In this document: positions 24,357 through 47,876 of the stretch, piece by piece
How positions within the stretch are numbered: the first letter of the stretch is position 1
Layout: each line of letters begins with the position of its first letter
Source of the DNA: Cyclobacterium xiamenense
Lineage (GTDB): Bacteria > Bacteroidota > Bacteroidia > Cytophagales > Cyclobacteriaceae
Assembly (NCBI RefSeq): GCF_009467825.1
Contig: NZ_WIOK01000006.1
Span: 62,001-126,000, forward strand
Direction: 5' to 3'
DNA length: 64,000 bases
Notes under the pieces: generated by a model
Told to the model about the DNA's origin: nothing
Seen by the model: the letters and a program-made list of their open reading frames with translations, nothing else
Databases searched by the model: none
Translations under genes and position numbers: made by a program

Positions 24357-24428
24357 GGCCTCGTAGTTCAATGGATAGAATAGAAGTTTCCTAAACTTTA
24401 GATGCAAGTTCGATTCTTGCCGAGGCTA
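24357..24428 (+). tRNA. tRNA-Arg(CCT)
   Basis: A full cloverleaf can be drawn: acceptor stem ggcctcg/cgaggct with one G-U pair, D-arm with GG in the loop, anticodon stem gaagt/acttt enclosing ttcctaa (anticodon CCT, reads AGG), and T-arm gcaag-ttcgatt-cttgc. CCA is not encoded. The gene marks the left edge of the AT-richer accessory island, a common position for integrated elements. Confidence 0.93.
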
Positions 24429-24430
24429 CA

Positions 24431-47465: not shown

Positions 47466-47509
47466 AAAAAAAATCCGGCAACTTCCGTAAAAGGCAAGTT
47501 GCCGGATTT
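47466..47509 (-). terminator. Rho-independent terminator after the tRNA-like RNA
   Basis: A perfect 14-bp stem (aaatccggcaactt / aagttgccggattt, 47471-47508) is followed on the minus strand by a T run. It lies 12 bp past the 3' end of the tRNA-like RNA and supports transcription of that RNA from the minus strand. Confidence 0.9.
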
Positions 47510-47520
47510 CACAAAACCGC

Positions 47521-47661
47521 TGTAGGAGAAGGACTCGAACCTCCACGGAGCTGTTAGGCAACACATTGAGCTCGATGTGTGCTTTATCCAGTACACCGGA
47601 TAAATCCGGATCCTCCACCCCCGAGACAGGAGGGCTTGTCTGCCAATTTCAACATCCTACA
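47521..47661 (-). ncRNA. tRNA-like RNA, class II form with 73-nt branched variable region, anticodon-like GUC
   Basis: On the minus strand: acceptor stem TGTAGGA/TCCTACA, seven pairs (47661-47655 with 47527-47521); D-arm TTG-11 nt-CAA with GG, of the tRNA-Leu kind; anticodon arm CCCTC-CTGTCTC-GGGGG (47634-47618); and T-arm GGAGG-TTCGAGT-CCTTC (47544-47528). The variable region is 73 nt (47617-47545), where 11-23 is usual for class II tRNAs, and seems to be a GGAG/CTCC stem closing two hairpins (CCGGAT-TT-ATCCGG and ACACAT-8 nt-ATGTGT). Base 37 is T, uncommon in working tRNAs. No CCA is encoded. A strong terminator follows. It is not tmRNA (no resume frame) and not tRNA-Sec (anticodon). Confidence 0.65.
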
Positions 47662-47876
47662 GGATAGACTCAAAATCAATTCAGAACCATTACTCGTCAC
47701 GAGGAGTTGCCAAATTTTGTTTTGATTCCTCAAATGTAATAAAACTCGCCTTTGGAAGAAATATTTTCATCAGAAAATGTAGATTTTTTCAGATCGTTCA
47801 ATTCTTTGACCAAAAACAAGTCATTTCTATAAAAATTACGCCGATTTAAAACTTTGGATTAACAAATCAATAACTG

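Follow-up and report, generated by a model that had tools for sequence, protein, structure and literature searches.

What purpose is served by an RNA that keeps all arms of a tRNA and inserts a variable region several times longer than that of other tRNAs? This question is raised by a locus in the window, the whole stretch of 64,000 nucleotides from Cyclobacterium xiamenense (contig NZ_WIOK01000006.1, positions 62,001 to 126,000) that was analysed here, and for which a sequence-only reading had described such an RNA without being able to assign it to a class. Our analyses lead us to propose, with a probability of roughly two in three, that this giant tRNA is a dedicated and probably non-decoding tRNA for tRNA-dependent asparagine biosynthesis, which would be aminoacylated by AspRS and then amidated by GatCAB. 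An earlier description of this RNA was not found in the open-access literature.

The RNA in the window and its covarying structure

The RNA is encoded on the minus strand from 47661 (position 1) to 47520 (G73) and comprises 142 nt including G73, with position 72 at 47521 and an encoded C74 at 47519. The sequence-only reading had placed a 141-nt tRNA-like RNA at 47521-47661, which is right, and had given no strand. The parts it listed are all present: intact arms, a canonical T loop, two hairpins in a variable region of 73 nt, a D arm resembling that of tRNA-Leu, a GUC anticodon, and a pyrimidine at position 37, which is U37 in the window copy (Table 1). The strong terminator noted downstream is also real and lies on the same strand. 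A simple consensus scan for promoters and terminators reported nothing at the RNA of the window and missed this terminator, whose 11-nt loop exceeds the scanner's limit of 8. The promoter-like element upstream was matched to TAnnTTTG, which we take to be the Bacteroidota -7 promoter element, and about 70 nt upstream of family copies TTACCTTTG (17 loci) and TTACATTTG (14 loci) recur. The RNA is flanked by an AsmA-like ORF of 1445 aa and an rluD-like ORF, both identified by eye. According to BLAST, the source genome contains four copies of the giant tRNA, and the window copy has matches of 90-99% identity over nearly its whole length in 12 other genomes, so that a strain-specific insertion, which had been named as a ground for refutation, does not hold.

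Table 1. Features of the giant tRNA locus in the window.
Feature	Position	Strand	Basis
tRNA-like RNA, nucleotide 1 to G73	47520..47661	-	sequence; covariance-model match of 131.4 bits at 47519-47662
Acceptor stem, 5' strand UGUAGGA (U1-A72, G2-C71)	47655..47661	-	cells paired 100% in 131 copies; 6 of 7 pairs changed on both sides
D arm, Leu-like, 3-bp stem, GGCAGA loop without U20a	47636..47652	-	
Anticodon arm CCCUC-CUGUCUC-GGGGG (anticodon GUC, U37, C38)	47618..47634	-	4 of 5 pairs changed on both sides; U35, C36, C38 in 131 of 131
73-nt variable domain: stem UGGAG/CUCCG, hairpin 1, internal loop GGAUAAA/CUAAC, hairpin 2	47545..47617	-	stem: 3 of 5 pairs changed on both sides
Hairpin 1 of variable domain, CCGGA-UUUA-UCCGG; only in part of the family	47596..47609	-	alignment A1
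Hairpin 2 of variable domain, length variable, palindromic tip GAGCUC	47558..47582	-	
T arm GGAGG-UUCGAGU-CCUUC	47528..47544	-	4 of 5 pairs changed on both sides
Acceptor stem, 3' strand UCCUACA	47521..47527	-	covariation alignment
Intrinsic terminator: 14-bp stem 47509-47471, 11-nt loop, T-run ending 47466	47466..47509	-	starts 10 nt after G73; sequence
TACATTTG, promoter-like, fits Bacteroidota -7 element TAnnTTTG	47731..47738	-	about 70 nt upstream of RNA; sequence

Standard tRNA finders overlook this RNA, which is found in many genomes. In the window, neither ARAGORN nor the Rfam tRNA model detects it; the only tRNA that they return there is an ordinary tRNA-Arg (CCT) at 24357-24429 on the plus strand. 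No family of Rfam release 15 scores above its gathering threshold at the giant tRNA, in agreement with the earlier statement that it matches no known class. The Rfam tRNA search of the whole source genome gave 36 places, an ordinary tRNA-Asp with the loop CUGUCAC among them, and none of these is any of the four giant tRNA copies. Folding of the single sequence was not significant for the minus strand (z = -1.32, 20 of 200 shuffles equally good) and gave z = -2.38 for the plus strand; as the single-sequence signal is weak, the proof of structure has to be comparative.

In 131 distinct copies, 97.0% of the pair cells hold standard pairs (shuffles 84.8%, slid controls 50.7-58.8%), 22 of 28 pairs are changed on both sides (no slid control exceeding 11), and the covariation score is 0.407 (shuffles 0.169, slid controls at most 0.122), all in an alignment fitted to a covariance model, which favours the pairs of that model. 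The MAFFT alignment A1, containing 54 of 63 distinct copies, has 98.1% paired cells, both-side changes in 10 of 28 pairs and a score of 0.231, against at most 0.089 for slid controls; alignment A5 comprises 100 loci, and its E-value limit excludes ordinary tRNAs. Covariation of the acceptor, D, anticodon and T stems and of the base of the variable arm is strongly supported by these aligned sequences. Loss of the acceptor or T stem, or a lack of compensatory changes, had been named beforehand as evidence against the RNA; the homologues keep both stems, and compensatory changes are abundant.

The covariation check that had been suggested for the variable region gave a positive result for its base stem, with three of five pairs changed on both sides. 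This stem is followed by the internal loop GGAUAAA/CUAAC, which is strongly conserved (54 copies), and by a hairpin of very variable length, and the total length of family members reaches up to 195 nt. A 78-nt homologue without variable domain and with A34 is found at L305:938-1015, in a genome (G048) that has AsnA and no GlnRS. Palindromes of at least 8 nt occur in 49 of 130 variable domains (shuffles: mean 26.4, maximum 44 in 200), often at hairpin tips, and the motif GACCAC occurs in 57 of 130; these elements might engage in loop-loop pairing. Several phage copies (L210, L221, L244, L261 and others) and one bacterial copy (L045:8170-8339) contain an insert in the D loop that resembles a hairpin.

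Nucleotides of aspartate identity and amidation

U35, C36, C38, G73, C74 and the pair G2-C71 are invariant in all 131 copies, the pair U1-A72 is present in 130, and G34 is present in 126, the other five copies having C, U or A. U20a is absent, with CAG following G18G19 in 129 of 137 rows (8 rows were unparsed), and base -1 can be C, U, A or G. Some of the copies were collected with a pattern requiring GUC and C38; the 54 BLAST-found copies of A1 and 50 copies found with the covariance model, chosen without this rule, agree with the nucleotide pattern except at G34 (46 of 50). A review assigns bacterial aspartate identity to G73, G34, U35, C36 and C38, joined by G10 and G2-C71, and names U1-A72 as the determinant of Asp-tRNA amidation and G1-C72 and U20a as the features that prevent it (PMC9976931). 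Judged by its nucleotides, the giant tRNA combines the aspartate identity set, minus G10, with the base pair that marks Asp-tRNA for amidation by GatCAB. That G10 is not conserved in the family counts against our proposal, as does the replacement of G34 in 5 of the 131 copies. Encoded C74 is found in all 26 ordinary tRNAs inspected (of 36) in the source genome, and the giant tRNA thus obeys the same maturation rule.

A GUC anticodon would also be expected of a decoding tRNA-Asp isoacceptor that has an odd variable arm and serves under special conditions, and the phage copies indeed adjoin ordinary tRNA genes. However, position 33 is U in only 101 of the 131 copies and G, C or A in the other 30 (15, 8 and 7, respectively), position 37 is U (118), C (10) or G (3) but A in no copy, the source genome also encodes an ordinary tRNA-Asp, and asparagine made on the giant tRNA would lead to misreading of Asp codons. 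We therefore regard such an isoacceptor as highly improbable. The suggestion of the sequence-only reading that the RNA may not decode fits the free position 33 and the missing A37, and we consider the giant tRNA to be probably non-decoding.

In the mechanism that we propose, AspRS would recognise G73 and the GUC loop with its C38 and would charge the giant tRNA with aspartate, and GatCAB would recognise U1-A72 and the absence of U20a and amidate the Asp-RNA to Asn-RNA. As asparagine on a GUC anticodon would result in asparagine at Asp codons, the RNA must stay out of decoding, which may be achieved by the large variable domain together with the unconstrained position 33 and the missing A37. 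Asparagine would then be released from the Asn-RNA to supply AsnRS and other metabolic uses, and AsnC would sense it. Charging, amidation, asparagine release, exclusion from the ribosome and the function of the variable domain are the steps that we infer, and the large variable arm might be a hindrance to AspRS.

GatCAB, asparagine synthetases and AsnC

Because the aspartate identity set is combined with the amidation pair, GatCAB was predicted to accompany the RNA ahead of the search for gatB. The comparison covered 78 genomes, namely 41 with the RNA (40 of the phylum sample described below, and G048) and 37 RNA-negative genomes that we chose from the same class. Of these 37, 16 come from the 20 class members listed without match, and 21 have matches that all stay below 60 bits and were taken by score for ordinary tRNA-Leu; the search that defined the RNA-negative genomes used stricter filters. 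Judged by gatB alone, GatCAB is present in all 41 RNA-positive genomes and in 2 of the 37 RNA-negative ones (Fisher test, 3.7e-20 by genome and 8.5e-13 by genus, with shared ancestry ignored and the genomes being related). Within family f22, gatB is found in 7 of 7 RNA-positive versus 0 of 3 RNA-negative genomes, and within f23 in 11 of 11 versus 0 of 2; the comparison covered the class of the source genome and one outside family. The two RNA-negative genomes with gatB are G099, which has no GlnRS, and G210, in which an ORF reading as gatA is followed by a 1110-aa ORF reading as a GatB-AspRS fusion (L338:1896-6628), with a His at a position that is L, K, F or M in the 20 further AspRS of the comparison.

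AsnRS is encoded in all 78 genomes and GlnRS in 33 of the 41 RNA-positive (8 lack it) and 36 of the 37 RNA-negative genomes, and in those 33 genomes Asn-tRNA and Gln-tRNA can thus be formed without GatCAB. With the protein of G386 as query, E. coli-type AsnB is found in none of the 41 RNA-positive versus 30 of the 37 RNA-negative genomes; 28 of these 30 matches have at least 67% identity, one has 50% and one 40%, and the copy of G087 contains two internal stops. AsnA shows no difference (5 of 41 versus 6 of 37), and the broad AsnB family TIGR01536 does not separate the groups either, as all 78 genomes match and 70 exceed the cut-off. Another AsnB-family protein above this cut-off is encoded in 36 of the RNA-positive genomes and might be an asparagine synthetase. 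Five RNA-positive genomes (G375, G304, G046, G324 and G206) have neither an AsnB-family protein above the cut-off nor AsnA, so that the RNA with GatCAB is the only route visible there; three RNA-negative genomes (G075, G103 and G172) have no gatB, no AsnA and no E. coli-type AsnB. The source genome has AsnA and lacks GlnRS, which counts against our proposal: GatCAB is needed there for Gln-tRNA, and as the giant tRNA is not the only visible asparagine route, this genome is a less clean case, in which the giant tRNA may share the task with a second route. We considered an LPG_synthase_C (DUF2156) enzyme of lipid aminoacylation as a consumer of the RNA and rejected it, PF09924 being found in 2 of 41 RNA-positive and 7 of 37 RNA-negative genomes, with one of these seven scoring under the cut-off.

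Bacteroidetes have already been listed among the genera that combine AsnRS, GlnRS and GatCAB with the lack of an asparagine synthetase, and the guess published for such bacteria with one AspRS is a non-discriminating AspRS acting on tRNA-Asn, which would also explain GatCAB (PMC4206432). If asparagine were made on ordinary tRNA-Asn, the giant tRNA would not be a substrate, and might be a scaffold or regulator of the complex or a decoy for AspRS or GatCAB. The same co-occurrence with gatB and AsnB would be expected, and the tRNA-Asn of the source genome has U1-A72. A precedent is provided by the Thermus transamidosome, which contains scaffold tRNAs. A second, dedicated AspRS was looked for and not found, each genome except G210 having one full-length aspS. 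In the AspRS of 12 RNA-positive and 7 RNA-negative genomes, a single alignment column separates the groups; it lies near the C-terminal end, outside the anticodon domain, and within that domain there is no consistent difference. The RNA-negative enzymes should discriminate, as gatB is absent, and the missing difference in the anticodon domain might mildly favour a discriminating AspRS, with which a separate carrier would be needed. The giant tRNA, moreover, retains a full acceptor end, an encoded G73-C74 and the amidation pair. Synthesis on tRNA-Asn with the giant tRNA as bystander is for these reasons unlikely, and we retain the giant tRNA as the putative carrier.

Of 193 distinct bacterial clusters whose upstream sequence spans at least 450 bp, 94 have an AsnC-like gene oriented divergently from the giant tRNA, related species being counted apart. 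The gap has a median of 157.5 bp and lies within 120-350 bp in 93 of the 94 cases, and none of the 193 clusters has an AsnC-like gene in any other orientation. The arrangement occurs in several families, one of them outside the class (L380); it was not seen at the Cyclobacterium loci examined or at three loci (L382-L384) of the family that includes Portibacter, and 99 of the 193 clusters, including that of the window, have no adjoining AsnC gene. For four AsnC-like proteins that were scanned, the best NCBIfam model was AsnC with 155-175 bits (curated cut-off 227), any other model reaching at most 87, and the one protein aligned with E. coli AsnC shares 44% identity with it. E. coli AsnC is an asparagine-responsive regulator, and asnC is divergent from asnA there, with a gap of 151 bp; AsnC was not found beside asnA at 12 asnA loci of the genomes studied here. 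AsnC probably controls the giant tRNA in many lineages.

Distribution, trailers and relation to known tRNAs

BLAST detected giant tRNA matches in 46 of 59 relatives, and the covariance model gave a match above 70 bits in 40 genomes of a phylum sample of 395 Bacteroidota. Bacterial copies are single or arranged in arrays, 204 distinct clusters containing 1 to 5 copies each. A pattern scan of named genomes returned at least 118 stretches, and among the 80 matches listed most are from Cytophagales and Saprospiraceae, with a few named Flavobacteriales or Chitinophagaceae. The identical pattern matched in 57 IMG/VR contigs, and the covariance model R1, built on 54 copies, confirmed copies in all 57 viral loci, 56 with at least 67 bits and one, clipped by the contig end, with 54.7 bits. 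Named phages of INPHARED gave no match with one phage copy as query. ARAGORN, applied to 24 of the 57 viral loci (mostly those with additional weak matches), found ordinary tRNAs in all 24, ordinary tRNA-Asp in 7, and tmRNA in 6 and doubtfully in one more. The many additional R1 matches of 84-89 nt, with at most 62.4 bits, are taken as ordinary tRNA-Leu because, in phages, R1 matches of about 50 bits fall on genes that ARAGORN calls tRNA-Leu. Some phage RNAs have acceptor, D and T arms like those of tRNA-Leu (L215:5129-7831, L217:4906-5974, L246:38-154, L253:3169-3299, L254:5064-5413, L257 and L258), and in these a long unrelated sequence, which differs between copies within one phage, replaces the anticodon and variable region. 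The presence of the giant tRNA in large phages with tRNA arrays, and its loop like that of tRNA-Asp, could suggest a decoy for a tRNA-cleaving toxin or a function in phage defence, but we find this hardly credible, as the associations with GatCAB, AsnB and AsnC would be unexplained.

Many Cyclobacteriaceae copies (L031, L032, L033-L036, L108 and others) are followed 3' by a near-invariant 31-nt trailer and a terminator; 52 trailer sites were found, 48 of them without mismatch, and viral contigs gave no exact match. The trailer is also found 3' of half-tRNAs, apparently of one protein gene (L315), and of a stretch without tRNA part (L316, L317 and L321). The half-tRNAs have the acceptor stem and T arm of the giant tRNA, no D or anticodon arm, and the same trailer at the end (L108:344-415, L135:5760-5818, L163:3148-3256, L173:4993-5100, L186:2372-2439, L314, L318, L319 and L320). 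A regulatory RNA, in which the tRNA fold would stabilise a leader or trailer RNA and serve its processing, could account for this trailer with its terminator and for the half-tRNAs. However, the trailer pattern (up to 3 mismatches) is present in 16 of the 59 relatives, and the window, in which it was searched, lacks it, the other three copies of the source genome carrying it; the aspartate and amidotransferase nucleotides, GatCAB and AsnC would, moreover, be left unexplained. We judge a regulatory RNA to be distinctly unlikely. The sequence-only reading had considered a regulatory tRNA mimic or a domesticated tRNA; the first is unsupported as the main reading, and the second comes close to the asparagine tRNA proposed here.

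A more far-reaching version of our proposal, which we see as evenly poised, is that the giant tRNA is a cofactor of amino acid biosynthesis that yields free asparagine by means of the normal AspRS and GatCAB, is controlled by AsnC and never enters the ribosome, with a branched variable domain that assembles the enzymes and blocks decoding, and with copies in large phages that sustain the asparagine supply. If our reading is true, a tRNA is devoted to the production of an amino acid instead of decoding, the asparagine source is explained for Bacteroidota with AsnRS, GlnRS and GatCAB and without E. coli-type asparagine synthetase, and the retention of GatCAB is understandable, as is a tRNA gene occupying the place of the synthetase beside AsnC; an RNA cofactor would join the cargo of large phages. 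The chemistry of the pathway is known; what appears, to our knowledge, to be new is a separate tRNA for this purpose that is conserved widely and apparently does not decode.

Among known tRNAs, tRNA-Asp (GUC) shares G34, U35, C36, C38, G73 and G2-C71 with the giant tRNA, and the loops CUGUCAC (source genome) and CUGUCUC (giant tRNA) are alike, whereas the giant tRNA has U1-A72 instead of G1-C72, no U20a, a free position 33 in place of U33, no A37 and not the purine 37 of ordinary decoding tRNA-Asp, a Leu-like D arm, and up to 195 nt. With the class II tRNAs (Leu, Ser, Tyr), and with tRNA-Sec and allo-tRNA, it shares the long variable arm with a base stem and the Leu-type D arm with a 3-bp stem, L305 without arm being the exception; its variable domain is several times longer and often branched, and the acceptor stem of 7 bp, the T stem of 5 bp, G73 and the GUC loop differ. 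Assignment to tRNA-Sec or allo-tRNA was rejected, as an acceptor stem of 8 or 9 bp and a 13-bp or 9/3 branch would be expected, and assignment to tmRNA, for which a tag reading frame and no anticodon arm would be expected, was rejected, as the giant tRNA has a covarying anticodon arm. Staphylococcal tRNA-Gly, which serves the cell wall, and the Bacillus cereus pseudo-tRNA are both tRNAs used outside translation, as proposed here, and differ in amino acid, structure and proposed pathway. The known pathway of tRNA-dependent asparagine synthesis, in which a non-discriminating AspRS and GatCAB act on tRNA-Asn (Deinococcus, Thermus, Staphylococcus, Bdellovibrio), resembles the proposed one in the attachment of aspartate to an RNA with U1-A72 and its amidation by GatCAB, in the presence of AsnRS and in the missing E. 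coli-type AsnB, and the giant tRNA has the sequence features of a GatCAB substrate, namely U1-A72 and no antideterminants, with gatB in each RNA-positive genome. In contrast to that pathway, the carrier here would be a separate tRNA with the anticodon loop of tRNA-Asp that need not take part in translation, and the single AspRS may discriminate.
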